In this document: positions 11,318-57,626 of the stretch, one piece after another
Numbering within the stretch: position 1 is the stretch's first letter
How the letters are laid out: each line of letters starts with the position of its first letter
Origin: Perkinsus chesapeaki
Lineage: Eukaryota; Perkinsozoa; Perkinsida; Perkinsidae
Reading direction: 5' to 3'
Assembly: GCA_013115145.1 (NCBI GenBank)
Contig: JAAPAO010000151.1
Span: 1-61,667, forward strand
Length of the DNA stretch: 61,667 nt
The notes under the pieces: model-generated
Databases searched by the model: none
Told to the model about the DNA's origin: nothing
The model's input: only the letters and a program-made list of their open reading frames with translations
Made by a program: the position numbers and the translations under genes

Positions 11318-14300
11318 TCACCGAAGTTGTTTTGCCCAGTGGAGCTTACTTGTTAAACTGTGGAACCAATCATCGAGGTGCTGCGAATATGAAACGAACG
11401 GTACCGGTGACATACCTGCATATCGAAGGAGTTATATGTGCAAATCGCCGGGGTGAGGGTGTAAAGCCAAGAGAACCATGCCAACCACAGATTTCTACCC
11501 CACATTAAACTTAGTTGCTGAGAGGTAATTCTTATGCACCGTATGGATCGATACCGCACGCGATCAATATGGTGCGTTAAGATATTCAACGTGATGGCTT
11601 TGCAGCAGTCTCCATCGCCGCTGGCCTGGGTAGTAGTCGACGGAATAGTACCGGCGGAGCTGGGCTAGCCAGCTTGTTAGGCACTGCTGCTGGCTGGCTG
11701 GCTGCCACCGGGACAGTGCCGTAGATTTCACACCCGCCTCCGTCGATCAGATTCATATTTCGATCTGATCATAATCGAAACGTACTTGTTGTTATTCGAA
11801 CTCGTTGGCTTCGTTCAAGTCCAATCTCAATTGCTCCATCAAAACAGGCTACCGGAAGGCTTCTAGTATTTCGAGGAATAACAATCTGAATAGGAGAGAA
11901 ATGCTTAGGGTGGGATTCGAACCCAGGAGAAGCCAGGGCCTGCAAACCAACTCTCAATGGTATTTCAAGGGTACGTGGAGAACGCTGAAGTGCACTTGTA
12001 GAAGTTATGAAACAACAAAGCTCGTCAAAACGTGATCCACTTAGCGTCATCACAAACCGTCAAATTCCATAGATTGAAAAAAACTAGTACTTCTAAACCA
12101 TCCATTTGGGTACACAGAATGGCTACTAGCAAGCCTGACTCTAAGGAGACCGGAAATGCCCAGTGGGAGGTGCCACCGTGAAGGCATACTCTCGGCCTTC
12201 AATTTCAAGTGACAGCTCAGAGAGATGGTTAATTATGAGAATAGAGATGACTCGACTAAGTTCAAGCGTTCGCCCCCAACATGAGGAGATCTTACTGCTG
12301 AATTTAAGATTGTATTTATCGATTAATGTATAGTAGTTAATTTCTCATATTAACTTCATGAATTTTTATACAGAATGTGCACGTTTTAAACCATCATCTC
12401 CTCTCACTGATTCGGCGGGTAAAGATTCTCAATACATTTACCCTTCTCTATACACTCGGATACATAAGTCAGCTTACCTCTATAGAGGCACTGGCAGGCA
12501 AAACTAATGGGCGTTGATTCAAACCGTGAGGCGCAATCGGTGTTATCATAATACACGGCACGTTGGGGGCGACCTGAAGGAGCACCAGAGATATCTGCCG
12601 CCTGTAGTATCGATATCTTTCAATTGAGGCCGTAATAATCGTAAATGCACGCCCTACAGTACGTCTTGATAGTCCAAGACGATATAGGAAAATATAACGC
12701 TATGAGACGTCGCTATTTTATGAAGTTTCATAAATTTGGTTACCATCCGAGATGAAAGGTTGACTTTTTCAATGTAACTCTTCAGCAGTATTGTGATCGG
12801 TGAAAATAGAAGTGATCTTACACACGTTAGAATAACAAAAATGATCGAAAGGAATGTCCGAAGCAGAGTGCAGCACTTCGAGGAATGTCCGAAGCAGAGT
12901 GCAGCACTTCGAGGAATGTCCGAAGCAGAGTGCAGCATATCGATGAGTGACAGGTAAATGTAACATCAAATGTTATTCAGAGAGATTGTCTTGTCCCTCT
13001 CGTCCGCATCTGCCACAATGAGTCGGAGTTAGTAATATATCGTACTACTCCTTATTAGGATATCTTATACTCCTATATCTCCATATCTTAGAGTGTAGAT
13101 ACTCAAGAATTTGTAATATGGAGTTACTAACTTCACAATAGAATTGTTTACTGACTACCGCGAAACGCTAAAGTTCCATAATCCCCGACGGTGCATCCCC
13201 AAAGCAGTTTGAAAAAGTGAATCTTTCACAAATCCAACATCGTCCTCTAGTTCAGACTCGTTCAGATTTCGGACATTATCCTCCCCTTTCTCACCAGAGA
13301 TCCACCAGCTGCCATGCTGTACGCACTAGATCCGCTCGGTGTGCAAATAATCAAACCATCGCCTTGGAACTGCGTAACGTATTTCCCATCCACAATGAAA
13401 TCAAACCGCTGCAATGCGGCTTTGGCTCCCCTGAGCTTCACCATAATCGATCAACTGGGCGTGCGCTTTTTACCTCGCTATCACGCACTCGTTCAGCACT
13501 TGCTGCTGCAATATAACTTTCTCAGTGACACCGTCAGTCCCCTCGGGAGCGTCTGATGCGTCGATGGGCGACCCGTCCGGACTTGTTCGAATTTTACTGA
13601 TAACTTCACAGCGAAGTCTTGAACGCATTGTGCAAAACACCTGTGGAGCAATAATCGATCACGTGATCGATTTCCATAAACCTTTTCGGAGTAAACATCA
13701 TTCGAAATACCTTATTGTACAGCAAAGTATCCGAGGCACACAACAGGAACTACGCCCAAGGAACTTCGTATACAGTGTAGACGAGGTGTCATGGTGTAGA
13801 CTCTACAACTATACCCATATATATGCCTAGATCTGGAACGTAAGAAGGTTCCCCATCGATCAGAAACGAGAAGCCATAATCGGACGAAATTGAAAACTAG
13901 TAACCTTACTAGGATTAATTTAAAATAAATTACTTTATAGGACTAAGTCTTCTATGAAGTTTTCCAATATGAACGATGTTCGACAGCAAAATGCTTGACG
14001 CCCTAAGATGGGAATGATCCCTCTTGAGGCTGCTGCCGAAAAGACGCCCCTATTGTCGACATCAGGGCACAGCCCTCCATCGTAGTTGTTCCTGTTTACC
14101 TTGGATTTGGCTTCGTCATCCGCTTTAAGGACATTTTCAATCGGCGCATCGAATACCTTATTCAGCAACTCACGATATCTACAAAGGGAAGATACGAAGA
14201 AATGCGAAGGAACTTTTCAACGGTTTGACACCTGAATAAAGGTTAATAAACTTAATTTATCAAACAAGCCGAATATTTCCTCGAATTTTAAGCCTTCAAT

Positions 14301-17300
14301 CGCTGTCAGCTTGCCGGAATACGGCAAGCCTCTGGCACCTACTGTGAACACCCTTCGTGCACGCAAACGCAACTCGCGTTACGCAAGTGATATGTTCGTC
14401 TTCGGTCATGCACTACCGGGACAGTTTATCGCGAGGGCAGTGTGTGATAAGCATCTTCGATTGGCTATCGTCGACGAGCCAGATTGAGGAGACTCTCCGC
14501 CGGAGTCTCCGGCCCGGAGACATATTAACATACTTTGTTTTAGTATCGTCGTTTTAACGAACTGCCCAAAGTGATAGCCATGCGAGGTATACTCCCACAT
14601 AAATTACAAACAGTAGCTCCGGAGGACGTAGACTGAACTGCGTTATGTTGCCGATACCATATTCAAAGTTCCCCGATCAATATTAGCTGCCTTTCAGTGA
14701 ATTGTCTCTAGAACCTGCTACATAAGGCATATTCTGGTACGAAAGATTTCGTAGACATGAATATATTCTTTCCACTTGAGAGGGATACACTTGTAGTCGA
14801 GCGACTTGAACAAAGACAATCCGAGATGGGACTCCCGTTCTGCAAATATCTGCATAAGTTGTCCCAGAATGAGCCAAGTCGTGTGCGTGTCCTCGTCTGA
14901 ATGCATGAGAGCCAAACCAGGAGTGTTCTCGTTACCAGAAACTCGTTAAAACTCCTTAAGACAGTGTTCTACCTCCTAGAGGACTCAATACATGTAGCTT
15001 AGCCTTCCCCATATGGCTTAACTGTCGATAGCGACCTTCTTTTACGAACATGGCATGTGCTCAGCTCAGAAATGTCAGTATAATAGTCACGACTCGGTCA
15101 TTTGCGGATCGTTTCAAGTTCCCATTTGAAATAATTCGTGAACCTTCATGTCTTACAGTCAGGCTCAGACTGGATAGATTCCCTCTGACTTTTCAAGTCA
15201 CAAGGGACCAGTAGGCTGATAAGCGTAGAATGTCGGGCCCGACAGTCTGTCAGAACCCACCAACCGTGTGCTAACCCGCCGCTGTTAGACTCGGTAAGTG
15301 CTCTCGACATCACATTTCCTGATACCCTATCCAGGTGTTGCATCAGTGGGGGCTCTGGAGGCAAAGGCCCGAGCCACCTGCGGTAGGTGACCTACCATGC
15401 AAGGGATGAGTGTCCATAGAGAGGAGAAATTAAAGGCAGTTGAAGGAGAGTGAATCTGTTGAGGGCCTTTCACCGCTTGGTGATATTTCAAAATACCATT
15501 CACCGCTTAGTTAGCACAGAACGACGTGCATGCACGCACATTTAAGCACGAGTCTCACCAGCAGATCATCATCTTTAGTTGTTGTTGTTGTAGCTGCAAA
15601 ACTAATGAATACAAAAAATAACGACTCCAATTCTATCACCCGATAGCCCGACTAGCTCATTTGTGAATCACAGTCTGTGATGCAGGCACACCAGCGGCTG
15701 CAAATTCGCAAAGTTCAGACTCAATTTTTTTACCCGGTATTCGCATTCTTAGTTTTCCAGAAGCAGACCAATAGCTTACTTTTCAAAGGAATGCGGTGTC
15801 AAAAACCCCAAACTCCCTAGGGCGAATGCCACTACTGGCGGAGGCATCAACGACACTATGTTCCCACGACGATACAGGTTATCAGCTGAAACAAGGAGAC
15901 ATCGTAATCCTAAGCGATCTTGCATCGTTAAAAATTCACTATCAGTGCGGAAATATCTGTTGAACAGATTCTGTTCGGCTTCCTCACCGATGAGGACTTG
16001 CGAGCTGGGCTTTCTCATTATTTTATACAGGACTTAAGTGTTTTGACTGGGTATTTTCCGTATTTTCCTCCAATTTTTCTCACGCTTGACTACAGATGTT
16101 GCCAGCCTCGAGCATATTTCTCGCACCGTTTCCTACATACATATTCCACATACAAGGTACTGTATTGATTAGGTGCTAGAGTTTTCTTAACTCACTGAGT
16201 CCACCACGTCGCGAAATCCCCTTATTTTTTCGAAACCATATTTCATATTTTCCATTTCTGTATTGATTCAATACTATTGAAGTGAAACCTTAACCAAGCG
16301 TCAAAATTACACAACAAAATTTTTTCTTATTTTCTTAAATATAAAAAGGATAAATGATAAAATTCCGGCAAAGAATTTCAGTACCATGAAGACTCACTTT
16401 CCAGCCACATGATGGTTCGCAAAACCGTTCCATCTCCTCCAAGGCAAATAACCAAATCGACCATAACAGGCTCACAATCGTACTCATCCGGATCGGTCAA
16501 CATAACTTGTTTTCCGTCACCCATGACCATGCGGACTCCCTGCGTTGAGAAGATGCAAGGTAACACAAGATTACAAGATTCACCTCTCCTCCATCGCCTT
16601 CAATACAGCGCTTTCGGCAACCGAGGCAGTGAAATCGCGAAAGCGGGCCGTGCTCTCGCTGCGCAGCAACTGAAAATACTATGCAGCAAAACCGGCAGAG
16701 AAATAACGGATAAATCGCTTCTGCCGGGATTCGAACCCGGGACCCACCGTCAGGATCATTCGGGTCCAACAAAACACTCAATCCTCGTTCGTCCTTCACC
16801 CAATCTGCCACTTCCACGAGCGCCTTAGTCGCTTCCTCATCTCCCCATTTTTTAGTTACCAAAACCGTCCGAGGCGGCGAGCTCCTGAAGAGGCCATCAG
16901 TCGATTAACCAGGCGGGGTCCAGTAGTGACAAATCCTCTTAGGAAATATAAGATTCCACCCTCTTGCGCACACCTCCAAGAATCTACAATATATTTCCAG
17001 ATTAGTCCAATACAGAGATTCTACGACCGCACAATATAGATTTGAAAACATACTCATACTAGGTCTTCGTAACGAAGTGGCGGAGCTCGCTCAGCTGCTA
17101 GTTTGCTCATTGTTAGTTCGTCATCGCTCGTCTAGTGCTTTGGCGGTGCGAGCGAATGATCAAATCGCGCAGAAACGATTTAGAGAAGAAGTCTTGGGTT
17201 CGAATCCCACAGGCTACATTTTTCTATCAAAAAAAATGTTTTCGCGCTTTTACTCGACACACGGGGTAGCTTTCTTAAAATTGCTAATTTTCTAGGCATC

Positions 17301-18857
17301 CCCAGAGAAAGGGGAGTCTTTTCGTTTATATACCATCAGCTAGTTTGCTCTGGTTAACGAGAAATAATTCGTACGCACGCACGGCGAAATGATCCATTTC
17401 CAGATAATAAGCTCCGCTCGCTTCGCTCGCTCCGCAATTTTAGCTCGCTGAAAAGGACCTCGGTTATCTCGATACTTGGATACCAATGAGATGTTCTAAT
17501 TAGCGCACTGTGGAGATTTCTCTCACCACGCCAATTTGATGCTTCTTCCATCTCGAACTGGATGACTTCTCGGTAACTGTGGTTCATCCGTCGGTGTATC
17601 TGGACCGTTCAAGCTGCTCTGCGATCGGGCCAGCCAGGCGATTCCCAGAATAAACTCCTCAATGTCGATGGTGCCGGACCTGGAAAAAGATACTGAAAAT
17701 CGATCACGTGATCGATTTTACCTGTCAATGTCGAACGCCTGGAATGCACTCAAATATGTCACTCTTGCTAAGGGAATGCTTGTGTGCTTCTCTGAAAAAA
17801 ACAACTTCTGAAATTTTCCGGATTTTCCCAAAAATATAAGATTTGATCAAGGAATTGGAAAACGTGAGTTTCGATTTAGCGTAATCCAGCAGAGCAAAAT
17901 CTCCGGAAAATTTCTGCCAAGGGAAATTTTTTCTCACCTCCGTAGTGGTCATAATTAAGGAAAAAATTGACCAAGGCATATCCGTTCTCAAAATCGACAG
18001 GATCCAGATGCTTTTTCCCGCGCGCCAGAGAATGGAAAATAGTCGCTAATCGATAAAGGGTTTCATAATTGAAGCCGGTACCTGGCGTTGAGGAAATGCA
18101 AGATTTAGCAAGATCAACAAAATCCTTACGTTGCTGTAGGGATGATACTACTTTCGCTTTATCAAGCCATTCTTGCAGTGCCTACCAGGGGAAAAATGCC
18201 GAAATTTTCCAAAAATTCCCAAAACCATGGAACGCGATAATGACTGATCAATTACAGCTAATTATTGAGCGGAAAAACCCGCCGGAATTTTGCGAAAATT
18301 TTGTCAATTTTCCCTTTCCGATGCACGCAAGGGAAGACGCGCCGACTTCTCCAGACTTCCAAAATAATTTCGAGTGCGAAGCTGACTGTTTCCGAGAAGA
18401 TATGTTCAGAGTAATTCATGAAAACCTAGCATGAAGCTAAGATACTCATACCGGCTTGAGCTCTGGTGAAATATTGCCATCAGGTGAGATTCCCGGAAGA
18501 TTTGCTTCCTGTGCTGCCTCGCGACAGAAATCGATGACCGACTTTGGAGTTAGCGAGCGAGCCAGTGCTGGACTTTTCTGAAAATGAAAAAATGAATGAA
18601 TATTATCAAGTATACCGGGACCGAGAATTGAACCCACGACCTCCCGCTTACTGTATCCTGCCATCCTTGAATCAACCCACTTCGCCGCGGAGTTTTCCTC
18701 TTCCCCTCCGCTCGTGGACTCACTTCCGCGGGTGAATCTGCGAAATCGATCATGTGATCGATTACAATCTTCACTTACTAGAAGTCTGATTTAACGGCAA
18801 AGGAGTCGGTATCGATGACGATGAAGACGGTGTCATATCCGGAGACTCCTCCGACAT
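11318..18857 (-). CDS. EF-hand/NAD kinase fusion protein, copy A, 588 aa, 16 exons
   Basis: Predicted Ca2+-responsive NAD kinase making NADP+ from NAD+ and ATP. Exons: 18857-18779, 18737-18652, 18577-18452, 18181-18130, 18081-17938, 17791-17722, 17679-17527, 16884-16748, 16535-16398, 15885-15780, 14178-14100, 13640-13474, 13430-13295, 12573-12478, 11885-11786, 11415-11318. They total 1,767 nt = 589 codons with every phase matching. Residues 1-90: Ser/Pro-rich, basic. About 120-195: helical segment, then a canonical EF-hand loop DIDRSGTIDIEE near residue 182. After a ~45-residue linker the kinase begins at LVTKKW. Motifs: LGGDGTVLR near 314, [52 protein letters not shown], and the C-terminal DDWFHSL...LHW. 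The EF-hand exon ends TG and the first kinase exon starts G, so the two read as one frame. Confidence 0.88.
11890..11955 (-). repeat. tRNA-like element at the 3' end of a NAD-kinase A intron
   Basis: Sense to the gene. A T-arm/B-box GGGTTCGAATCCC is followed by a GCATTT tail and then the CTATTCAG acceptor of the exon at 11885. The acceptor stem does not pair, so it is not a tRNA gene. Confidence 0.7.
12851..12943. repeat. 31-bp tandem repeat, 3 copies
   Basis: Three adjacent copies starting at 12851, 12882 and 12913 share GGAATGTCCGAAGCAGAGTG. The third diverges at its end. The array lies inside the 721-bp intron of NAD-kinase A between the exons ending 13295 and starting 12573. Confidence 0.95.
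13431..13473 (-). other. 43-bp intron carrying the word ATCGATCAACTGGGCG
   Basis: Intron of NAD-kinase A between the exons ending 13474 and starting 13430; phases agree. On the plus strand it contains ATCGATCAACTGGGCG followed by TGCGC. Nearly the same word (then CGCGC) lies just 3' of the eIF4E stop at about 56634. Confidence 0.75.
13653..13672. repeat. 20-bp palindrome (P20), perfect copy
   Basis: AATCGATCACGTGATCGATT near the 3' end of the 459-bp intron before the exon at 13640, about a dozen bases from the CAG acceptor. Confidence 0.95.
16685..16747 (-). repeat. tRNA 3'-half-like sequence starting at a 5' splice site
   Basis: The intron starting at 16747 opens with a T-arm (CCGGGTTCGAATCCCGG, a perfect 5-bp stem and 7-base loop) nine bases after its GT, then GCGATTT. 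Only the 3' half of a tRNA-like unit is present. The equivalent intron of copy B has no such element. Confidence 0.75.
17065..17215 (+). repeat. tRNA-like element, antisense within a NAD-kinase A intron
   Basis: A B-box/T-arm TGGGTTCGAATCCCA at about 17191-17205 is followed by a T-rich tail, with an A-box-like GAGCTCGCTCAGCTG about 100 bases upstream. It lies in the 642-bp intron joining the EF-hand and kinase parts, on the opposite strand. Confidence 0.55.
17680..17721 (-). other. 42-bp intron built around the P20 palindrome
   Basis: Intron of NAD-kinase A inside the EF-hand loop. It starts GTAAAATCG, contains the perfect palindrome at 17698-17717, and ends TTTTTCCAG. Removing it restores the loop DIDR|SGTIDIEE. 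Confidence 0.9.
18605..18690 (-). repeat. tRNA-like sequence straddling an exon-intron boundary
   Basis: The T-arm GGGTTCAATTC lies in the intron starting at 18651, while the D-arm/A-box-like part (GGCGAAGTGGGTTGA) lies in the preceding exon. GT of the 5' splice site is 17 bases before GGTTC, the spacing expected if it occupied anticodon positions 35-36. Confidence 0.55.
18738..18778 (-). other. 41-bp intron built around a P20 variant
   Basis: First intron of NAD-kinase A: GTAAGT, then the palindrome with one change (AATCGATCATGTGATCGATT, 18744-18763), then CGCAG. Phases on both sides agree. Confidence 0.9.
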
Positions 18858-18985: not shown

Positions 18986-19021
18986 TAAATCTTTGATGAA
19001 TTGTATTTTACAAATAAATCA

Positions 19022-19110
19022 CACACAACCAGGAATTGAACCAGGGACCTTCCGATAGCCCCAAAAACAGTCAGGCGCTCCCCTATCTGAGCTCTCTTGC
19101 CCAATGCAAT
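19022..19110 (-). repeat. tRNA-like element overlapping the stop codon of NAD-kinase B
   Basis: A-box GAGCTCAGATAGGGGAGCG and T-arm CCTGGTTCAATTCCTGG lie on the minus strand. The A-box part encodes the last residues and the TAG stop (19083-19085) of NAD-kinase B. It has ~10 extra bases in the anticodon arm and no pairing acceptor stem. Confidence 0.7.
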
Positions 19111-22100
19111 TTACTCCGCAAACTATGGAACCAATCATCCAAGTGTTGTGTTGTCGATACAAACGGTACCGGAGACATGCCTAACAGAACGAGAAATGTG
19201 ACTCATCCAGTCCACTCGGTCATCACCTTTAGAGAAAACGGAGAATTTAAAATCCAGATTCTTTAACAGACTCAACTTGCCTTCCTTACTATATCAAAAT
19301 CAACCAATAAATTTCCAAAAATTTTCCATGAAACTTTAAAAAATACTGCCTTATACAAAGTATTAAAATTTCCGGAAATTTTCCGAAATTTTCCCCAACG
19401 TACTTGTCGTTATCCGAACTCTGTTTCCCCTATTCAGCTCGATATTTGTTGCTCCATCAAAACTAGCAATCGGCAAGGTCCTCGATTCCTTCGGAATTCC
19501 AACCTGCAATCAAAAGGTCCCTGGTTCGAATCCCCCGGGAGGCATTTTTTACTTCAATTGTTGCTCCTGCTGGTAAAATCAATGGTCGCTGAGACAGGCC
19601 GTGCGGCGCTATCGGTGTTACCAGAATACAGGGCACATTTGGGGCAACCTGAAAAAATGGAAAATTCATGGTTTAATATCTACCTATTTTTTCAACAAGT
19701 TGTTCTACTTGTCGGTAAGGTAGAGTACCAGTCGTTCACCGAGGAAGTACTAGAGCGACGACCGTTACTTCTTCAGAAAATGAAAATTTTCAGTCGATTT
19801 CTCAAATTTTACATAAAATTTTCATCTATGAAGATCCTTGTTGGAGTTCGAGCATGAATGGCAAGCGAGATTCATGGAAAATGAGGAATTCTGAGATTGA
19901 AATGATTATCTGGACAATTGCCAGCCTTCCGCACTTCAATCATCTACAATCGGACAAAAGGGGGAATGTTTTGGAGATGCTAGGCAAGTCTGCTAAAATC
20001 GAACCTCCAACCGCGGTAAATCCACGTGAAGATCATCATGCTACCGTACCCCGGTTATGCTGGTTCGAAAAGTCATCAAACCTGCGAACTGCTCATCTTT
20101 ACTAAGCAGTGGGGCAAATTGAAAGATTGGAGAACATCACAGATTCGGAAGGCCTCAGTAATTTCCTTACCAGACTTCCACCAGCTGCCATGCTATATGC
20201 ACTCGAACCACTCGGTGTCGCTATTATCAATCCATCAGCTTGGTATTGGGTCATTAGTTGGCCGTCAACGTAGAAATCAAACTTGTGAAATGCTGATACG
20301 CATCCTCTAAGACAAAGGAAGAATATAATCGATCACGTGATCGATTTTGACAACTGATAAATGTTTAGAGCGTCTTGAATTTGTTTTACACAGATATCCA
20401 ATCTATGTTTGAATGTATACGTAGTCAAATAATTAGGGAGCCAGCTTTTGAACAGATACTGACTAGCAAACCTAAATCGATCACGTGATCGATTATCTTA
20501 CCTCGCAATCAAGCACTCGTTCAACACTCTGTGGATTCCAAGAACCTTTGGATCTTCCTCAGACTGGATCACTTCACATCGAAGTCGAGACCGAAGCGTG
20601 CAAAAAACTCTCTAAAAGTAAGGAATCTTAGCTTGAACCGTACAAGATACAAACTAGGTGAACTTTCTACCTTCTTTTTTGCTGCCTCGACATCTTTATC
20701 ATCTTTTCCCAGACAATCCTGTACCGGCGCAACTATCACTTGATTCAATAACGTCTTGAATCTACATTGCACCAAACAAAATGCATCCGAACTGCACCAG
20801 AATGACCTAATATACTTATGTCCTAAACAATATCATTTCATTTGCCCTGTTGTACCACACAACGAAGCTATTACAGTACCCGTCAACTGAGGACTGTATT
20901 TACTTCGCCGAGCTAGGCTGCGAAGTTTTAAACATAGAGGGTTTAATTTACGACAATTACATTGCGCACCTCTACATTGCTCAAAACAGTCCTTGGTGAC
21001 GGGTACTGTAACGCTCGCTTCGAAATGTGATCGCCAACGAACCGCCGCATGCTTGATTTAATTTCCCCTCCCAATCTACGACCTTACTACAGCTACTTTA
21101 ATTACAAATGATTCTCCCCGAGGCAGAATGACCGCGTGAAAGAGAAAATATTCCAAGTTAAATTGGCAATTCTGGCACGCGCAAAATTTTCGCTCGCCCA
21201 TATCAGTAACTAGGCATGAAACGGTTACAATATTTTGACAAGTGGGTCTGAACTACCATATGCGTAACATATCCGAAAATGAGCACTAAACTTGTTCCCG
21301 TTGTGAAGTAAGGATATTACTTCAAAATATTCTAAGTTTATTTGGAGGACTGTAGACCAGAGTTGGCCGAGGCGGCGCAAGTGAAGAATATTCTCTTTAC
21401 GTCTGTTCTGACTTTCTTTTTCACTATTCACGAATACTTCACATTATTTCTGCTATCAGATCATAATGGTACGATAAACACTTATAGGTTTACCGGTTTT
21501 ACTTTTTGACCTGAGTTATCCCTTATAACAATGTCCGAAGACACCTGCCGGCTACCTTCTCACCGACTCGATACAGAAGTCATACCATTCATTGCCGTGA
21601 GAAAATCGGTCGGAATTTTTCCGAAATTTTCCTTCCTTGCCAACAGACGACCACGTCGATATATTCGAGCAGGAAGTAGTTTTTGTAAATTACTTAACTC
21701 AGGTAAAAAACAATGCCAATCCTGTCCAGCTGCCGCATGCTGAGATTCAAGTCAGGAACCAACCGCAGCATGAAACAAATCGTCGAGCAATTACGATTTT
21801 TGAAAGGCAGCCTTCGCCCAGTAATTTCACCAATAAGCTCAACAACATATAGCTCTGAACACACCACGTATACTTTGGGCCGTGAACTGAACCAGCCATA
21901 AATTTACCCTTTCGATCAAAAAATCACACAAGACGCTGAAAAATGAAATTTATACTCTTCACCACGCCTGAAAGTGCTCATTCTCGACAGCGATATCCGC
22001 TAAATACGTTTTTTCTATCAGAATCGAACACACTGCAAATATAAATGATCGTGAATATCTCTCCCAACTTCCCACCTATCAAATGGATGGGGTGTCAGAA

Positions 22101-25100
22101 ATCCCAAGCTTCCCAAAGCAAATGCCACCACCGGAGGAGGCATCACAGTCATAGGTCGATTTCCTGGAGGGCTACCAACATCGGCCGGAGAGGCTGGTGC
22201 GTTTAGGTCATCAGCAGAAGCCGGGAGAGCTGAAAATTGACAAATAAAAAACGCTTCGCTCCGCTAGAATCACATTACTAACCCGGAAACAAGAAAAACT
22301 ACAATGAAAAAACGCTTCGCTCCGCTAAGATCACCGAATTTCTCGTTCTATGCATTATACGGTTTTGGCGTCTTTGGAACACATTTTGGAATTTGCTTTC
22401 TATTATATTCCTTTGCACTTTGATTTCTAGTTTTACCAACACTTCTCCCCGTGACATTGAAGAACAAATGTATTCAATTAAACACCCATTAAAAATGCCC
22501 CCACCAGGATTCGAACCCGCGTCGTCTTACATCGTCCTTCCTCCAACCAGTTGATAGTTCTCAATACCGTCCCATCTCCCCCGAGACACACAACCAAATC
22601 AACCATCAATTGCTGATCCGAATTCTGCTCAGTTGCCGACTCCGTATGATGCGAATCATTTTCATTTTCGATTCCATGAGGGGCAAATTCGGCGAATCTT
22701 CCACATCTAGCGGGTGCGATACCACCAACTGACAGATAGAAAGACCAAATCGATCACGCGATCGATTTAAAATGATGTTCAACTAAAATTCTTCTCTCTA
22801 CACGAATTCAATTACTGAGTGACTGATGATATATGAGAATCCCACAACATTTCTCACTCACACCACACCGCTCTCACCAATCTTAGCAACACGAATTTCA
22901 CGTGAAAAGTTGCCCTTGTAAAATTATTTAATCGATCAACCTCCAATCCGTGACAAGACTCCAAAGACCATCTTATTATTCGCAGAATAGTTACACACTA
23001 ACTCATACCAAAACGTAACATTTGACATACAGATATTCGATATTGGCTCCAACTGTCCACGCTTTAGTCTACCTTAAAATACAGTGCCCCAAGGTTTAAC
23101 ATTTTAAGTCAGAGTTAAATAAATATCTTTTCAAAAAGTGAAGTGCAAGCTTCAACCTCCCCCCGATATAGTACCATCCGGATCGTTAGGATCCATCACC
23201 ACACGAATGTCATACGCAGTTTTAAGCCATCTACCAACTTCAAGCAGAGCCGCCTTCGCTCGATTACTTCCCCATTTCTTTGTCACCAATATGACTTGCG
23301 GACGCGAGCTCCTGACAGAGAGAGTCACGCGCCACAAAATTCCGGACACCCTCATATGTCTTATAATATTACATCTCCACACTAGCCAACAAGATATTAC
23401 TATTGAAGAGAAGAAAACCTCAAAAAGGGCTGAAAAGTCGTCAATTCTAGTCCGCTACAAATGACTATCGATGTACAATACTTCCCAAATCCGCGAGGAG
23501 GCACACAGCGGAACGCCCCTTCAAAGCTGCTCAAACGTGTTAGTCTTTATTATAAAGTAGTAGATAGTACCATACTATTACAATACTTAACACTTGATGA
23601 TGATATAATCCAGCTCACGATATCATTACCCAACATTGTCCAAATATCAATTATCACTGAATTACCTCCCCCCCCCCAAATTACTACCAAGCCAAGTTGA
23701 CATTCCTGCCATCTCGCACCAAATGACTCTTCGGTAACTGCGGTACTCCATCCCCAAGACTGTCAAGAGTGTTCAAGTTGGCCTGCGATCTAGCCAACCA
23801 TGCAATGCCTTGAATGAATTCAACGACATCTATGTTACCCGACCTGGAGAGAATAGGGAACACAAGTGATAGAGTTCGAGCAGCTGATAATGATTCGGGG
23901 CGATTTCGATAGACTATGTAATATACACTAAACAACTCCTGGGTCCGTGAAAAGACGTAAATTCAAAAAAATTATGAAAATTACGTGGCCACTCCAACTA
24001 AATACATACCATGAGGAGTATCTTCGTCAGCCAGATGGATACCCAATAAAATTCCAACCTTATAAATTTTCCCCGCTACGTTCCCCGAGCCCGCTCGCTC
24101 AATATCACCTGTCCCTATCAAATGCTGTAAAAGCGCTAAGATACGTATCTTTAGAAAGTGGAACCCTCTTCGGTGGGTGGCCGCCTGATGCTTCATAAAG
24201 GCCTGAAAAGACGAGAAAAGAGAAAAAGAAAATTGAATAATTTCTATCTGGCCCGTTCATCAGTTCCACAGATCACGAAAAGAATTATTCGGCGACAAAG
24301 CGGGTATGTTCACCGCACTGAGCTTGCAAACATCAACATAGTCGAGTGGGCTCCTGTAGTACGTTTCGTCTCGAGTTCTCGATTATAAGGTTCCGAGAGC
24401 ATTCAAGTATACCCTCCGCGACCCGGCCCGCCGATGCTCTCGATAGGCCGGGATTTTCGTGCAGATTAAAATTCGCTATTTATCCACTGCAGGGCAACTA
24501 ATATAATATTATCCTCGACAGTCGGAGGGATGATATGGAAGTGAGAGATATTAGTTTTATTATCATACTACCTCGAGGAGAAGGCCTCAATCCAGGGAGC
24601 CTGGAAAACACCTTCGCCTTTACTCGATTAAATGTTTCTGAAACCCAGCCAATCGAGCATTGACTGGAACCTAATTCTACTGTGTAAAATAAATTAAGAA
24701 TCGACTATGGACTGGGATAACACTTTGCTATCGTATCGATTGTACGGTAGGAGGAGGGGCGACAGATCTGTCTGTGACTTTCCGTTCATATCTGTCAGCC
24801 TACCCAACCCAGCCAAAACTGCCAAAAACCGCCCAGAATTTTCCTAGAAATTCCGTTTCCTCGCGAGATAGCTACAACGTAGAGCCATTCCAATACTGAT
24901 AGAGATACACTATGAAATTTTCAGAAGTATTAAAAACCTGCGGGATGCCTATTGCACTATATAGCGGAGGAAATTATATAATCGAACACCGCCGCGGGCG
25001 TGGCCTCCAGTATTACTAGAGTACTCCTCGTAATTTATGAAATAGTTGACCAGAGCAAATCCATTGTCAAAGTCGGAGAAGTCGAGCGTCTTCTTTCCTC

Positions 25101-25349: not shown

Positions 25350-25703
25350 CTAAGGAGATAAAATGGTTCAATGGAATCTATCCTTAATTCTATTATTTTA
25401 GGATCTATTTACTAAATACGATTTATTTACTAAATAATTACTATACTAAATATGGTATTATAATATAAATATGACGCAATTGATAATTGTCAATGTAACT
25501 TTATTACCGTCGATGATGAAGAGAAGGCATGAGTGACCGGCATGAACCCCCCATTTGTATTGGTTCGTCGAGGCGGATTTGATGCCATTAGATTATAGAG
25601 GGGAAGGAGGAGGCAGCGGTGATGAGTGGTGAGACGAAGGGGAGAAGAAGACAAAATGGTGGGAAAAGGAGATAATTAAAAACCCAGCTGAAGTGACCTC
25701 AAG

Positions 25704-25988
25704 CATATCTTGCACGCTTGACCTCAAGATATCTCACTGCTTTCATCGAAAGTAGATTACATGAGGTAAAGCTGAAGCAATCTTCGGATAATATTGAATA
25801 ATTATGATCATTATTCTTACCAATTTTGTATCTTCCGCGCTTGACCTCAAGATAATTTGTTGTACCTGCTAATTTTCATCGATTTCTCGAGATGCCCAGC
25901 AAAATTTGAGATTATCGGTTCTGAAGTGTATCGGATGGGGTTCCTACTCCGACCCAATTTGTATCTTGCACGGTCAATTTCAAGATAC
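25704..25988. repeat. Three further E28 elements
   Basis: Copies at about 25704-25733, 25828-25855 and 25961-25988, each with GTATCTT- or ATATCTT-like and AAGATA-like ends and a CACGCTTGACCT-type core. They lie in the unresolved 5' region of NAD-kinase B. The first is flanked by GTGAG and CACTTCAG as if it were a whole ~50-bp intron. Confidence 0.85.
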
Positions 25989-45543: not shown

Positions 45544-46731
45544 TCAGCGACATGAAAATCTTTTTTCGCTCAACGGCCAGCAACACACTCTGGGACGACG
45601 ACACTCATGCCTGTCTAGTAAATTCTCCCGAATTCGAGTGCCTATTCTGAACACTACCACACCAATGAACATCGCTAGCAAAGCGATCCACTCAAACCAG
45701 GGCACTTGACAGGAGCCTATAAGCGGCCAATTGATAAGAGACATAATAGCCGACAACGGCAAAGTTAATGTAACACAGAGAAATGCCAGTGTGCTTGAAG
45801 CTGTAGCTAATAAATAATATAAACTAATATTGAATAATACATTGACAACCATATAACAAGTAAAGGAATTTCTGGCGACACTGTCCATCATCAAAAGTGT
45901 CATACCCTCGGTGAGAGTGTTAACCACATTAGTATGACCGATGAAAGTTTCAATTAACAATGAAACGGGCAGGACACTCACCATCCCAATGAAATGAACC
46001 GAGCTGCTCATGAGAAAAACGTTCAAGTCTAGTTTTTCCAAACTGTGACTCCGCGCGTACGTGGTGTATTTGACAAACATGAGCTCTTTTACAACGAAGG
46101 CGCAAGCTTGAATGACCATAGCCAAGGAAAAGAGTAGGTAGCCCGACACACTATTCGAATCAGCAACTTCACCGTCAACGCACTGTAGTATAATAGATAT
46201 CACCGCCACGGATAAGACAATAACAACCGCTGAAAGCTCTTGTAATATGTAAGATGTATGCAGTATAATAACGGACCAAAGCATAGTAGCTGGTACGATA
46301 AACTGTTGTAGAAGCTTGTACATGACTATTGGCATATTCCCTTGAGTAGAAAATATTAAGAAATCCGCGGTCACTTCACACACGGCAGAAATAACTGCAA
46401 ACTTGATATTTGGAAGCCAAGTGATGAAACGAGAGATTCCAGTATGGGTAGTCTGGTTGGGTAGCAGAATCCAGACCAACTGTTCTCGGGGAACTCGACC
46501 GAATAGCGCCATAATCACACAAGAGGTGGCGTAAGTGATAAAGTAGACAATTTCACCAACACAATTGGAGACAACACCGGAATATTCTCCCAACGCAACG
46601 GCTCGTATTTTACCGGTGATGGAGTTGAACGTGCCACATAATACAACCAAAAACATAAAGAAAGGCACCAACGTCCGCAAGGATAGGTTAGTTCTGGATA
46701 GACCGTCATACGACCAGTAGAAGGACATCAA
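45544..46731 (-). CDS. CRT-like / drug-metabolite transporter superfamily protein, 395 aa
   Basis: One intronless frame with about ten hydrophobic segments spread over residues 15-385, the topology of the drug/metabolite transporter superfamily. LLQQFIVPATMLWSVIILH followed by a hydrophobic helix with AVVIVLSVAVISI matches the central region of the chloroquine-resistance-transporter (CRT) and CRT-like group, which in other organisms sits in vacuolar or plastid membranes. An IxxMFIGVVVFRIGTR segment near the end is the typical last helix and basic tail. The substrate is unknown. It could also be a more distant member of the same superfamily. Confidence 0.75.
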   Translation of the reverse strand: MMSFYWSYDGLSRTNLSLRTLVPFFMFLVVLCGTFNSITGKIRAVALGEYSGVVSNCVGEIVYFITYATSCVIMALFGRVPREQLVWILLPNQTTHTGISRFITWLPNIKFAVISAVCEVTADFLIFSTQGNMPIVMYKLLQQFIVPATMLWSVIILHTSYILQELSAVVIVLSVAVISIILQCVDGEVADSNSVSGYLLFSLAMVIQACAFVVKELMFVKYTTYARSHSLEKLDLNVFLMSSSVHFIGMVSVLPVSLLIETFIGHTNVVNTLTEGMTLLMMDSVARNSFTCYMVVNVLFNISLYYLLATASSTLAFLCVTLTLPLSAIMSLINWPLIGSCQVPWFEWIALLAMFIGVVVFRIGTRIRENLLDRHECRRPRVCCWPLSEKRFSCR

Positions 46732-48718
46732 ACGGCCAAAACTGCCTTGAAGAACTTTGTGCTACTTGCGATGCTGTCAGATTGAAAACTTCGCTGTACG
46801 ACTTTGGAATCCTAAGCACCCCTCGTTGATTTTCAGTGGCATCTGAGACGAATTGTGGAGCAAGGAAATTTTGAGAAAGTTTCGCGAAACTCCAGGGGAT
46901 TTTCGCTGAAGGTGGTTTAGCGACGGCCACGGATCTAACCGTCGAAGGGCAGTTTTATCAATCCACGAGGAAGTCGTTACTGACCAGGATTGACACTCGC
47001 GCGCGCGTTGCTAATGATGTTAAGATCTCGCGGGTGGAGTCATGATTGATAAGTCGCTTCGCAGTGTCAATTTGACACTACCGGTGGACGATGGCAAGTA
47101 ACACAATTCGAAGGCTTTGTACCAAGTAGTCCAGACTCTGGACTCCAGAGTAGTCACCCACTGCCTGGTAGCCCTAGCTGGCGACCAGCTCAGCTACGAG
47201 GTACGATAGCTTGAAGCCTCGGAGATAGGTAATGAAGCGTAGTCGCCAACACCCGGGTGAAAGATTCCCGCGAATCTCCTCCTCTCGCGATTCACACCGT
47301 ACGCGTGCGCACGGTGCCAATTCGCACGCCTGCGACCGACCACAACGGCAGGGGAAAGCAAAGACTTGCTGTTGGATGTGACCAAATAGAATAGATTCAC
47401 AGACATGGATGTAGGCTACATCATGTAGCAGACACACCGCTATGAAGGGTTCGAAAAGGAGAAGTACAGGAAGCTTTAACCACGATGTGCTTTGTCTTAG
47501 CTGAAGGATATGAACGCATATACAAGGGTGCAACCATTTTTCCCGCAATTGTGTGATGAGCTTATTCTCGAAAAGTTAACTGGACCATTTAATTGAATCA
47601 GAAGGGAATTCACGCGACACCTAACGTAGAAAAAAAACTATTGTTGTCATTCGAGCATACATTTGCTTTATCCCGGCAAACCGAATGAGCAGTCGAACTT
47701 CGAGGTTGGAGGTGTGACGCGGGATATGTGAGTGTCAGCAAACATCAGCAGTGCTAATTCAACACCTCTCGACCGGAGAAAGACGAGAGCAGGTTATCAG
47801 CTTCGGTAACTTAACTCATCCAGATTCTGCTCGTAATACATAAACGTATTTCGCTTGCCAGTTGGGAGCTAGGCGGCGTCATACAGGTTTCAAAGTTCAC
47901 ACACTATCGGTGAAAATCACATCACCTTGCCAGCCGTTGTGCTTTTGTGGTTGCACACAGGCCCTTGGATGCGTAAGGGAATTCTGCTAGGAGAAGTAGG
48001 ATCTCTTTTGACTAGTTAAATTCCCTTGAGTGAACCGTACAGTGGAAATAACAGTATAGGTATTAAACTGCCGTTCGGAAGTTGTACATAGTATGGATAG
48101 TCTAACTAAGCCTTCTTCGGCGTTGAACTTTAAACTCACACACATATATGAATAGCTTCACAGTACGATATACAACATATCCCCATATTGCTCGAAGTTT
48201 CCGAGTCGGACATTTATACGTTCTGTGATTGAATATATAGATTCCTCAAAAACTCTATATCTAAATCTGTGCGGGCTTTTCTTGGTCAGACTAATAAGAA
48301 CGGATGATGACGGCCAAAATGCTCATACACATGATTGAACTCTATGTTAATAAGTATAGCAACTAATAGTAGATGCACCCAGAATCGGTTATTTATCTGC
48401 GGGAAGGGTAAGGTTCGAACGTTAGGCGTCCTCAAGTGCAAGGCTGGCAGCAAACCCCTAGCATTGGTGCTTCGCCGCCGCCCGCTCCATGGAAGATGCT
48501 AATTCACCGTGCGAGAGGCTAATTGTAAGAAGTAGCCTTTATTGACTCGCCTCTCGACTTGTGTTCGAAAAACAAGCAACAGTAATTGAGTTACCCCTCT
48601 TTTCGAGGCGAAACAATGTTACTAGAAAAACTCAGAGCAACATTGATGTGAATAACAGAGAAACATTAGAAAGTGTTTAAGTGTGATTCCGACTCAGTCT
48701 TGTAACAAAATCATTTCT
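46732..48718. other. Gene-poor stretch
   Basis: No supported gene. An open minus-strand frame at 47174-47548 has hydrophobic and Cys-containing parts but no recognisable domain. A hairpin CCAGACTCTGG/CTCCAGAGT lies near 47131-47152. The CTAAGCCTTCTTCGGCGTTG repeat is at about 48106. Confidence 0.4.
48470..48582 (+). repeat. Diverged third copy of the 37.4-kb structured repeat
   Basis: Keeps GTGC..CGCCG..CGCTCC, AAGAAG.AGCCTTT.TTGACTC and the terminal CTTGTGTTCGAAAAACAAG hairpin followed by CAACA. An additional stem CGAGAGG/CCTCTCG is possible here. Confidence 0.65.
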
Positions 48719-50640
48719 TTATTCAAGATGGGAGTAACCATTCTGTGAGGAACCGATCGCCGAAACACCCTTCGGCTTCCGGACGTGCGCCTCTGCGTCG
48801 GCGACGTAGACGTCGGCCTCGCCACGCGCGTCCTCCTAAAGACAAAAAAACAAGTCGCGATCGTAGTTGGCTTTATCTTACGGGAGCTGCTCGAAGCTCA
48901 TTGGCCTTCTCAGCCTCGCGAGTATCATTAGTAGGAATCAGAGGTTCAGTCGAGCGCCTAAGATTAACGAAATGACAAGACCAGGAAATGAACCAGGGTC
49001 GTTAGAACTAAAGACGAACGCTCTACCGCTACGCCATAGAAGACTTACTCTGCGTCAGGTAGGCCTGCATCAGGGTTTGATTGTTCTTGCTGGACAATCT
49101 CTGGCGTTTGCACTTTCGGCAAAACTGCTGTTCCCTGGACGACCGGTGTGGCGGTCGCAGTTGCTACCGCTGGTTGAGGAACTTCTATCTTTGCTACCAT
49201 TTCTGGTATGGTTTGTGACAGAGCGTCGACACAATCACGGTTCTGTGTAACCGTCGAGGAGAAGTACTGCGACAACTGAGGGAAAGAGCTTTTGAATACG
49301 AGCTGCTTGCACGAAGAAATGTGAACATCTTTCGAGTAGCCGTAGAAAATACACTCTAAGAGGAGATCTACAGATCGACGATCTAAAATAACGAAGTGAA
49401 AATCGTTATTATTAACGGAAAACCTAATTTATAATTTTCATGGGAAGCATGAGATATTCATGCACTCCAAACGTAGGTTCAATTCATGAATCTCCAGTGG
49501 GTCCCGATGAGGTTCAGCTTAAATCTTTTCGTGAATCCCCCTTAGTATAGTTGAATAGTGTAGAGCCTGGGCAGCCAGTGAGCCGGTCAGGCAAGGTAAT
49601 ACGTTTAACCGAATCAGTACGAGTTAAAAACCATTCTCACCGCTTCGACAATTTCCCCGACATCCTTCTGTCGTCGACCGAGTATGTCTTTGATGTCTCT
49701 GTCCACACTGCGATCTAGACGATCGCAGTTCTCCTGTGCTTCTCTGAACTTCACCAGATTCTGCAAAAAATTTAAAATTTCCGGAAAATTTCCAAAAAAT
49801 TTACTCTGTCCAATTTTTCCTTAGCAGAATCTGAGCTCGATCCGTTCTCAACTTTCTTCTGGTATTTCTTCTGCAAGTCATCCGTCTTGACCTCGTAGTG
49901 CTTCACCAATCCGTGCGCTCTATCTCGGTCAGTCAGATCCGTCTGGGCAATGTAAAGAGCGCTCGCGCAGATGATCGATTATATTAACGCTCACCCTTAG
50001 TGTCTTGATTCGGCCGTCCAGTCTGTCAATCTTGCCCTTGGCTCTCCCGAGACATGCTAGAGAGTTTTCACCGCTATGATTGAAATGCGACATTTGCTCC
50101 GAGAACACAGCGAATGCGGCGGAGGTGTCCTGAGTAGGACAGATTTTGCGTGTTATGAAAAATATCTTCTGATAGAAACCTTTCTTTTATTTCTCCTAAT
50201 CTAGAAGCACGTTGATGCTCTAGGTATGCACTCACCTCACTGCCGGCAGTGGACTCTGTGCTAGTGGAGCTCTTCGGGTCGGCTGCCTCCCGAGAGAATC
50301 TTGCAACATTGAGATATCTCGGGTTCATCTGCTGCTGATTGGCGGTGATGTGATCGACTTCCGAGGAAAGTTGCTAAAATAGAGGACGCAGAAATGGAAC
50401 CAGAGGCCTTTGGTATACAAAACCGATGCTTTAACCGCTAGGCTATTTCGGCAAATATTCTCACCAGCAACTTGGAGTTGTAGTCCAATAAATCCTTCCT
50501 CTCGCCGACCAGCGGATCCTCATCAAACTCCTTCACGCCGAACATCTGAGCATCTCGCCATAATTTCGCGGCGCGTGACCGTACTCTCTTACCTTCTCCT
50601 TCATACTCCTGAAGGTCTTGTTATCAAACCATGAAGTCAT
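48719..50640 (-). CDS. BAR-domain (amphiphysin/endophilin-like) protein, 359 aa, nine exons
   Basis: Exons 50640-50593, 50545-50465, 50373-50236, 50129-49995, 49942-49805, 49760-49641, 49275-49049, 48957-48882, 48835-48719 total 1,080 nt = 360 codons, phases all consistent. Residues 1-~240 are long charged helices (DRAHGLVKHYEVKTDDLQKK, EKLDRNLVKFREAQENCDRL, then LSQYFSSTVTQNRDCV), the pattern of a BAR dimer that senses or bends membrane. The Pro/Thr/Gln-rich tail (~250-359) replaces the usual SH3 domain, which is absent. Likely role: membrane curvature in endocytosis or organelle shaping. Introns are mostly 40-95 bp; two are tRNA-like. A 55-bp tandem array lies immediately upstream of the start. 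Confidence 0.8.
48958..49048 (-). other. 91-bp intron formed by a tRNA-like sequence
   Basis: GTAAGTCTTCTA is followed directly by the A-box/D-arm TGGCGTAGCGGTAGAGCG, an anticodon-arm-like stretch, the T-arm CCTGGTTCATTTCCTGG, a CATTT tail and TTAATCTTAG. Removing it joins GCAGA to GCGC in phase 2 and keeps the BAR protein open. The acceptor stem is not paired. Confidence 0.9.
49440..49505 (+). repeat. tRNA-like T-arm, antisense in a BAR-gene intron
   Basis: GTAGGTTCAATTCATGAATC on the plus strand inside the 365-bp intron 49276-49640; the A-box is weak. Confidence 0.5.
50374..50464 (-). other. 91-bp intron formed by a Thr(TGT)-like tRNA sequence
   Basis: GTGAGAATATTT, then GCCGAAATAGCCTAGCGGTT with a D-arm, an anticodon arm with 7-base loop TTTGTAT (anticodon TGT, four of five stem pairs), a 5-base variable loop, T-arm TCTGGTTCCATTTC, then TATTTTAG. 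Same length as the other tRNA-like intron in this gene. The acceptor stem does not pair. Confidence 0.9.
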
Positions 50641-51466
50641 AATGTTAGTAAATTATTAGCAATAACAAATCTGATGGAAAGTTTGATAGGAAATATGTTA
50701 CTAGTGATACGGAGGAGGAGATATAATAGAAAGGAGTTTGATAGGAAATATGTTACTAGTGATACGGAGGAGGAGATATAATAGAAAGGAGTTTGATAGG
50801 AAATATGTTACTAGTGATACGGAGGAGGAGATATAATAGAAAGGAGTTTGATAGGAAATATGTTACTAGTGATACGGAGGAAATTAAGTCAAATTTGGTC
50901 TCTCCCAGTAGTAAGCTTTTATAGCTCACTGTGACTCCTCGACAACATATCCTTACCGATCTACGATGACCTACTAGAATTCATACCGACACTTCCACTA
51001 ATTACAATACTTCCCACAATAACACAACAGACGTAATAAAAACGATTAAGTAGTATCAGCAAGTATGAAATCTAGTAATCTTAAACACTCTTGCATTTCC
51101 TCATCGGTCGCCTTCTCCCCATGTCTTTATATCACTCCGAATGAGCGCCTCACAATCACCACTGGTTGCTTGGAAACTGATGAAGGTTCAAAAATAAATC
51201 AAAGACTAACTTTTTCGAGAAAAAACTAATGGACAAATTTGAGCAAATATATTTAATAATCGACGAAATTATCATTTTCATATTTTAGGACGTAATCGAA
51301 ATTATGTGACCAATACAATTGGTCGGAAATATAAGTTTTTGGCACTAAAGCGGAAAATCTGAGAAATACTCGACTCGACTAAACACACATTTTAAAATTC
51401 CCTATGCTGCAATAGAATCAATTTCAAACCGTAAATTCCATTTTTCCCAAAATCCATCCTCCCTTA
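50641..51466. other. Upstream region of the BAR gene, no gene seen
   Basis: Contains the 55-bp array (50681-50881). The remaining ~580 bp is AT-rich with nothing recognised. Confidence 0.5.
50681..50881. repeat. 55-bp tandem repeat, ~3.65 copies
   Basis: Units start at 50681, 50736, 50791 and 50846 with GTTTGATAGGAAATATGTTA and contain GATACGGAGGAGGAG. Copies are identical by eye, suggesting recent expansion. The array lies 40 bp upstream of the BAR start codon (minus strand). Confidence 0.97.
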
Positions 51467-56625: not shown

Positions 56626-57626
56626 TAATACAATCGATCAACTGGGCGCGCGCTAATTGCAAATAGCGTCTGGAGGCGGTTGTTGTATATTTATTATATT
56701 CTATAGTTGCGCACTGTGAAGAATTGAAAGATTCTTTGTGGGAGAATCTTCTTTGCGATGATTGCTAGCTTGAAAGTATCTTAGGTTGATATGAGATGCA
56801 CGGTCGAGGTTATATATAATGTTACTTATTGACATAATCTAGTTATTGGTACAATCTTCGTCTGCGCATATCTTAGCTTGAACCGTGCAAGATACTTTAC
56901 AGGTTAAAGACTGGCTATACAGTAAAACGGTTGTCGATCAGTAGGTGTTATGATGATCGTTACGTATACTTATATTAGCGCTCTTGTTGAGTTGCAGTTC
57001 TTCAATCATTCAAAGAAATATTTTCTCAGGATACTTCGTAAAACCTTTCGACGAACCAATCTCGATGGGAATGCACTGAACTAAAATAAAATCGATTAGT
57101 GTTATGTGGAGTTTCCCGGACAATTTGCTGGCTCATGAAGCAAGCTACATTGTATGTAGGAGATCATAGAGGAGCATCAGAGATCCGTTAGGTCCACGAA
57201 GAAGAAGAAGGAGGAGGAGGAGGAATGCATTTTATATGCCTTTTGGTTTAATAACATCTTCTGGCATGATTTCTTAATGTGGGAATTAACAACACTCTCA
57301 ATACTCAATGGTGGCGCAATCACCTCAGAGGCGATTGCGTCAAAAATGTCTTCCGAGAAATTGATTTCGCCATGAAGGTATAGGTTTGATAATTCCATCT
57401 TTGGACACTTTCACGACGGCAGCTTTCGTACCGACGCCTTCGGTTCACCCAAGTTGGGGGTTGGATTTTATTTCTTGCGGGATGAAACTTTTTATCGAAG
57501 GAAAATTGAGCGGGAAAATTTTCATTTTACACGACTATTCTTTGTATGGGAAATGTTCACGAAGGGGAAAATATTTAACTGAGTCGATTTTCCATTTCCT
57601 CAGTCATCGTTGAATATTATTCTCGA
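56626..57626. other. Intergenic region between eIF4E and CDC50 genes
   Basis: Contains E28 elements at 56776-56805 and 56868-56895, the word ATCGATCAACTGGGCG at about 56634, and a GAA/GGA simple repeat at about 57196-57226. No gene supported. Confidence 0.6.

Follow-up and report, generated by a model that had tools for sequence, protein, structure and literature searches.

How an intron of a protein-coding gene can consist, almost from one splice site to the other, of a sequence that resembles a tRNA is the question raised by a gene on the minus strand of contig JAAPAO010000151.1 of Perkinsus chesapeaki (GenBank assembly GCA_013115145.1). The stretch analyzed, further called the window, is 61,667 nucleotides (nt) long. 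Two introns predicted in this gene, intron 2 and intron 7, are each 91 nt long, and they had been described in a first-pass annotation, made by a model from the sequence alone, as tRNA-like sequences that carry splice sites at their ends. The explanation that we favor, and to which we give an even chance, is that both introns are members of a genome-wide group of short GT-AG introns filled by decayed tRNA-derived DNA, which took over older intron positions.

Two introns of the host gene resemble tRNAs over most of their length

The gene model of the host gene contains introns of 47, 91, 106, 52, 44, 338, and 91 nt. To compare them with tRNAs, ten real tRNAs of the same genome were made into a covariance model, R1. 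The data showed that in the region 48700-50700, searched with filters off, introns 2 and 7 stood out (Table 1), while the next of the 16 listed matches reached 4.5 bits. When R1 was applied to 271,368 bases from 22 sources, five intact tRNAs were found at 79.6 bits or more, and intron 2 was the best non-tRNA match (26.6 bits, E=1.2e-5). A home-made score combining A-box and B-box was compared with 1000 dinucleotide shuffles of each of the seven host-gene introns; introns 2 and 7 beat all of the shuffles (p=0.001), and the remaining five introns had p values of 0.22 or higher. Hence, the tRNA-likeness of both introns, as originally described, was confirmed. Judged from their sequences, they have a tRNA-like head with RNA polymerase III boxes (A- and B-box), as tRNA-derived short interspersed elements (SINEs) do.

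Neither intron is a recognized tRNA gene. The Rfam tRNA model matched the minus strand at 50387-50452 with 26.2 bits and at 48980-49037 with 19.5 bits, both below its gathering score of 29, and on the whole window it listed only intron 2. ARAGORN, run with the bacterial code, called no tRNAs in the window, and the intact tRNAs scored far above both introns in the R1 search. The first-pass annotation had reached the same view on the grounds that the acceptor stems do not pair, which is too strong a statement for intron 2: six of its seven acceptor-stem pairs form in the Rfam alignment, which skips the T arm, although the stem is mostly unpaired in the R1 alignment. The 38 low-threshold ARAGORN matches (5 to 8 when introns were allowed) were taken as noise.

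Both introns have canonical GT..AG ends, and the reading frame is restored on their removal. If intron 7 were kept in the transcript, an in-frame TAA would follow immediately, and if intron 2 were kept, a stop would be met at the ninth codon. Their splice sites lie at the edges of the tRNA-like bodies; outside the body aligned by R1 there remain 12 and 6 nt in intron 2, and 4 and 15 nt in intron 7. Splicing of both introns is probable, judging from the reading frame and from the homology that continues across analogous junctions in other genes. The stops also agree with the first-pass claim that both introns are needed for an open frame, while the 359 residues given for this frame became 332 in the present model. 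The label BAR, given to the host gene at the same time, found no support in Pfam or PDB sequence searches.

B-boxes followed by a 3′ splice signal stand mostly at one distance from it

The genome comprises 35.4 Mb in 884 contigs and has at least 62 intact tRNA genes. The exact B-box pattern, GGTTCRANYCC, occurs in it 2155 times, versus 285 times for the reversed pattern; each palindromic site GGTTCGAACCC enters the count twice, once per strand, and intact tRNA genes account for part of the 2155. The window together with a 200-kb sample contains 26 exact B-boxes, of which at least two lie in intact tRNAs and one in a coding sequence.

The 3′ splice signal TTTYAG follows a B-box at 4-30 nt in 226 cases, which include at least two intact tRNA genes, while its reverse complement CTRAAA does so in 24. 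In 65 of the first 100 listed cases the distance from the start of the B-box to the AG is 27-31 nt, where even spacing would give 18.5 cases, and this distance is found in 8 of the 24 cases of the control list with antisense acceptors. The interval of 27-31 nt is where the AG lands if it is placed directly behind a tRNA 3′ end plus a T-run, so that the AG is locked to the terminator. Since such 3′ halves adjoin splice signals, the idea that they belong to split or long-intron tRNA genes was dropped.

Candidate introns could be drawn around 21 of the first 22 listed cases, for example GTAAGAAAGGTCGTGGGTTCGAATCCTGGTAATGTTATTTTTAG (44 nt); one of these 21 acceptor-selected elements is an intact tRNA-Thr. 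With tRNA-Thr excluded, GTRAG is present at most 50 nt upstream of the B-box in 8 of 20 elements, compared to 1 of 20 for its reverse complement and 0 of 20 for its reverse. For 8 of the 21 elements a home-made gene finder predicted an intron that ends precisely at this acceptor, one of them wrongly, in the intact tRNA-Thr. This gene finder is poor, as its last round kept three genes in the window, and it does not provide an unbiased intron set. A T-arm score had p values of 0.02 or lower in 10 of 101 introns shorter than 300 nt from 13 of the better genes of this finder, where 2 were expected, in a set that holds false introns. Ten non-tRNA R1 matches with E values up to 0.05 were found in the 271 kb, eight of which lie in or at introns (one, L024, depends on the weak gene finder) and two at gene 3′ ends.

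Homology continues across tRNA-like introns in other genes

In a gene with a KH domain (L022), a 55-nt intron has the form of a tRNA that lacks an internal part and whose acceptor stem pairs (GTAAGCAGCAAC..GTTGCTGCATTTCAG). It interrupts the KH domain after residue 357, and with the intron removed residues 338-395 match the domain with 53.5 bits. A 98-nt intron is also predicted in this gene, and its body is matched by R1 (17 bits). A 99-nt intron of the KH gene, tRNA-like by eye, had no R1 match and a T-arm score with p=0.51, and was not counted. The genome contains no paralogue of the KH gene in which intron presence or absence could be compared. The spliced CCT-delta product matches T-complex delta over 441 residues with 476.7 bits. 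Its 56-nt antisense tRNA-like intron follows residue 412 and has well-matched residues on either side; the alignment contains a single one-residue gap, which is located two residues before this intron. The CCT-delta coding sequence holds one exact B-box (L010 1514). In Prp8, a domain is split by a long intron that contains an exact B-box (R1 14 bits, E=0.13) and consists mostly of other sequence; without the intron the domain is continuous, with 83 residues aligned to 83 positions (165.5 bits). A further gene (L066) has a pair of tRNA-like introns, 53 and 82 nt long and 117 nt apart, and a single open frame requires the removal of both; the Pfam support for this gene is weak (17.9 bits versus a cut-off of 20.5).

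The window itself contains tandem genes with NAD kinase domains on the minus strand, at about 11321-18830 (copy A) and 19086-25200 (copy B). Eleven exon segments match between them, and all ten intervals between the segments, of which the E6-E7 interval holds further exons, are present in both copies, with sequences that are unrelated by eye. B-boxes with at most one mismatch are found in 5 of the 20 intervals, and the introns or the orientations concerned differ between the copies. The donor positions are identical at I4 and I9, while the I5 donor of copy B is about 10 nt downstream of that of copy A. I9 of copy B consists entirely of an antisense tRNA 3′ part, and NAD kinase 9cr4_A aligns without a gap across the junction GATIE/VGIPKE. 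Near the 5′ end of copy A, the donor of a predicted 74-nt intron resembles the anticodon arm of Thr-AGT, and R1 matches 18613-18681 with 17.5 bits. In summary, tRNA-like introns are seen in both orientations, and homology is continuous across them in the KH, CCT-delta, and NAD kinase genes.

Two other repeats also touch the NAD kinase genes. The 20-bp perfect palindrome AATCGATCACGTGATCGATT has 62 exact genomic places (reversed control, 0) and is present in the window at 13653-13672, 17698-17717, 20327-20346, 20475-20494, 58806-58825, and 59425-59444, in addition to variants. Several of these palindromes are located in NAD kinase introns near splice sites, and one makes up much of the 42-nt intron 17721-17680; the palindrome is possibly a second intron-making repeat. 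The repeat AAAAAACGCTTCGCTCCGCT at 22221-22334 recurs, on the opposite strand, in intron I5 of copy B.

The tested intron positions are probably older than their filling

Three distant paralogues of the host gene (L054, L055, and L056) are present in the genome, with 31%, 31%, and 25% identity over the matched parts. At the site of intron 2, introns of 48, 50, and 52 nt were read in these paralogues in the same phase, and two of the paralogues require the intron for an open frame. R1 had no matches in the three paralogue introns at this site. Because the paralogues share the sites, both for intron 2 and in the NAD kinase pair, while the filling is different, the tested positions in the two gene families compared would predate the tRNA-like sequences that now occupy them.

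The elements share a tRNA 3′ part

Among 40 non-tRNA elements chosen without regard to an acceptor, the sequence in common begins at about −11 (GAAAGGTC) relative to the B-box and goes no further than +26 (GGCATTTTT). This stretch corresponds to the tRNA 3′ part with its terminator and has the consensus GAAAGGTC..GGTTCGATTCCCGG....GGCATTTTT; the T-run is present in 22 of the 40. Neither a tRNA-unrelated body nor an A-rich or LINE-like (long interspersed element) tail common to the copies was seen in these 40 elements. Eight whole-body elements were 49% identical to each other and 50% identical to seven real tRNAs, which were 59% identical among themselves. The eight were chosen by eye and include the uncounted 99-nt KH-gene intron; R1 lists four of them (introns 2 and 7 and two of L022), L037 was searched and gave no match, and L060 and L066 are outside the search.

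Introns 2 and 7 each match only themselves in the genome, and no second copy of either is present. The D-arm string of intron 2 has a single genomic occurrence, so it is not shared among the elements and failed as a common feature. Introners are defined by the presence of many similar copies in introns. Because the two introns are single-copy, and because the eight whole-body elements are no closer to each other than to real tRNAs, the elements do not form a uniform SINE or introner family of recent origin.

The outer T-stem pairs were counted in 67 elements. They form in 92 of 201 cases, compared to 93.6 of 201 with shuffled partners, and to 81, 62, and 72 with partners slid by 1-3 nt. As no covariation above the shuffled level was detected in the outer T-stem of these elements, the pairing is explained by the consensus common to them. 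These counts also speak against an origin of the elements from many different tRNAs that kept their T-stems paired, and they do not show a fold kept by selection.

Table 1. Positions in the window of the host gene, its tRNA-like introns, and tRNA-like pieces of the NAD kinase genes
Feature	Position	Strand	Description
Host gene	48873..50640	−	7 introns, 332 aa in predicted gene model; C-terminal end uncertain
Intron 2	50374..50464	−	91 nt, phase 0, GTGAGAATATTT...TATTTTAG, acceptor TTTTAG, whole-body tRNA-like
Intron 7	48958..49048	−	91 nt, phase 2, GTAAGTCTTC...AATCTTAG, whole-body tRNA-like
tRNA-like body, intron 2	50380..50452	−	R1 26.6 bits, E=8.8e-8; TTTTAG directly behind
tRNA-like body, intron 7	48973..49044	−	R1 17.4 bits, E=7.8e-5
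I9, copy B	19504..19552	−	49 nt, antisense tRNA 3′ part (GTAAAAAATGCC...GGATTCGAACC...TTGCAG) as whole intron
I9, copy A	11886..12477	−	592 nt, ends in sense tRNA 3′ part plus CATTTCTCTCCTATTCAG; exact B-box 11913-11923
I4 donor, copy A	16727..16747	−	Donor followed by tRNA 3′ part (GTGGGTCCCGGGTTCGAATCC); tRNA piece absent at this shared site in copy B
I5 donor, copy B	22507..22530	−	Donor followed by tRNA 3′ part (GTAAGACGACGCGGGTTCGAATCC)
Predicted 74-nt intron near 5′ end, copy A	18578..18651	−	GTAAGCGGGAGGTCG...TTTTCAG; exon frame read by eye
tRNA-like element, stop codon and 3′ flank of copy B	19021..19101	−	R1 24.8 bits; intron status unproven
Antisense tRNA 3′ part in long intron I3, copy A	17187..17207	+	

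Other features

Two tandem intron-less open reading frames (ORFs) on the plus strand, at 1521-2402 and 4899-5783, encode a secreted protein by eye, and their DNA is 99% and 87% identical over two 300-nt stretches. A member of the CRT-like transporter family is encoded at 45547-46761 on the minus strand (Pfam PF08627, 48 bits). The 243-nt inverted repeat 39313-39555/44126-44368 is 90% complementary, and one of its arms lies in an ORF with a RING finger by eye. Long ORFs of degenerate repeat (L027 and L028) are rich in ELP, RE, and RAK motifs. A dispersed, imperfectly palindromic repeat, GTATCTTGCACG..TTCAAGCTAAGATAC, is found at 20622-20674, 25170-25988, 56396-56919, 58180-58232, and 60095-60125, and the contig end (61507-61667) is G-rich and of low complexity. 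The dinoflagellate/perkinsid spliced-leader core, CCGTAGCCATCTTGGCTCAAG, has 8 genomic occurrences, with 0 for the reversed control, so that a place of the organism in this branch is probable.

Discussion

In the explanation that we favor, tRNA-derived pieces, mostly without their 5′ parts, would have come into the genome again and again, in sense as well as antisense orientation. Pairing of a U-tail with A/T runs at intron edges could direct the insertion there in either orientation, and loss of the remainder of the old intron would leave one tRNA-like piece as nearly the whole of an intron of about 40-100 nt. In the sense orientation the terminator T-run would serve as the pyrimidine tract directly before the AG, while in the antisense orientation an A-run would stand directly behind the GT, giving GTAAAA. 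The donors could come from tRNA-like stretches, for example an anticodon arm (GTAAGC) or a D-loop (GGTAGAGC). We tentatively consider it possible that the source is retroposition, in which T-terminated pre-tRNAs, mostly 5′-truncated, are reverse-transcribed into A/T runs at intron edges and supply a running source that replaces old introns and sometimes founds new ones.

Several observations weigh against the take-over of older introns by tRNA-derived pieces. When 21 elements with exact B-boxes were taken regardless of an acceptor, from 20 places, with 5 of them being intact tRNA genes and several looking coding or intergenic, GTRAG was found upstream in 3, its reverse complement in 1, and its reverse in 6, and TTYAG was found downstream in 2 versus 1 in the control. 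Elements also occur at gene 3′ ends. The 48-nt stretch of L056 is also open when read through, the paralogue introns could themselves be older, decayed tRNA pieces, and there may be young intron gains elsewhere in the genome. The share of genomic introns with a tRNA-like body may also be small: it is 2 of 7 introns in the host gene and 1 of 14 predicted introns in CCT-delta, and among 256 gene-finder introns exact B-boxes are found in 8 (4 sense and 4 antisense; about 0.05 in shuffled introns), with B-box classes of two or more mismatches near shuffled levels. The scan of introns with a tRNA model, which had been proposed in the first-pass annotation as a check, came out favorably for the R1 matches, 8 of 10 of which are in or at introns, and less so for exact B-boxes.

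A doubtful alternative is that a tRNA-derived element was inserted into exons and made introns at new positions, as introners do. This is close to the proposal of the first-pass annotation that a tRNA-derived SINE became spliceable. A recent family of this kind is left without support by the single-copy introns, the 49% versus 50% identity, the common sequence that is limited to the tRNA 3′ part and T-run, and the shared intron-2 site. An introner would explain why the element fills the entire intron with splice sites at its edges, and why a 3′ splice signal stands behind 226 B-boxes, in most cases equally far away; introners are also described in dinoflagellate relatives (PMC7789003, PMC11453091). 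On the other hand, the testable positions, those of intron 2 and of the tRNA-bearing NAD kinase introns, are common to paralogues, with intron 7 being outside this comparison, and neither intron has a second copy. It is unlikely that one old, decayed family of tRNA-derived SINEs simply lies in introns as it does elsewhere, with edges that match because short introns leave no room. The common 3′ consensus, the elements at gene 3′ ends, and the splice signals no higher than in controls around B-boxes taken regardless of an acceptor are consistent with such a family, but the eight whole-body elements are as close to real tRNAs as to one another, the genome has a single occurrence of the D-arm string of intron 2, and the lock of the AG to the terminator in 65 of 100 cases is not predicted by mere presence.

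Selection on a tRNA-like fold, serving either splicing or a tRNA-type processing of the intron after its excision, appears very improbable. The B-boxes are well kept, the T-loop A is located about 22 nt before the AG, which may be a branch-point distance, and the outer T-stem pairs exceed those of slid partners. However, the exact B-box was the selection criterion, shuffled partners pair about as often, and antisense copies also serve as introns. That the resemblance is due to chance or to errors in the gene models is hardly credible, even though the introns were predicted from DNA alone and one sampled exact B-box is located in the CCT-delta coding sequence; it is contradicted by the R1 E-values of both introns (Table 1), by the counts of 2155 versus 285 B-boxes and 226 versus 24 acceptors, and by the homology across junctions in the KH, CCT-delta, and NAD kinase genes.

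The origin of intron sequence and the renewal of splice sites are an open question. If old positions are indeed refilled by tRNA-derived pieces, the age of an intron position would be separable from the age of its sequence, and repeated sequence within introns would not by itself prove intron gain. In minimal tRNA-derived introns, the RNA polymerase III terminator would then be placed as the 3′ splice signal.

Introns with a whole tRNA-like body were not found described in the open-access literature, judged mostly from listings. The closest likeness is to introners, in which a repeated sequence forms whole introns with splice sites at its edges, and which are known in the dinoflagellate branch (PMC9860276, PMC7789003). 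DNA transposition is reported to fit most introner families (Gozashti et al. 2022 PNAS, PMC9860276), and the words tRNA, SINE, and Perkinsus are absent from the main text of that paper. In Amoebophrya, introners have inverted and direct repeats and non-canonical splice sites (PMC7789003). In contrast, the introns described here have a tRNA-like body, both are single-copy, and the tested positions are common to paralogues, so that neither many similar copies nor new positions were found in the cases compared. Other known systems resemble them in part. The tRNA-derived SINEs and tRNA retropseudogenes have a tRNA body with A- and B-box and are spread genome-wide in both orientations, while here it is often the tRNA 3′ part with a T-run alone that is present, and the copies act as introns. 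In the exonization or intronization of elements such as Alu, sequence of the element is read as a splice site, and stretches of intron turn into exons or stretches of exon into introns, while here almost all of the minimal intron is made up by the element. Finally, tRNA genes can carry introns, which is the reverse of the relation seen in the host gene, where a tRNA-like sequence is the predicted GT-AG intron of a protein gene.
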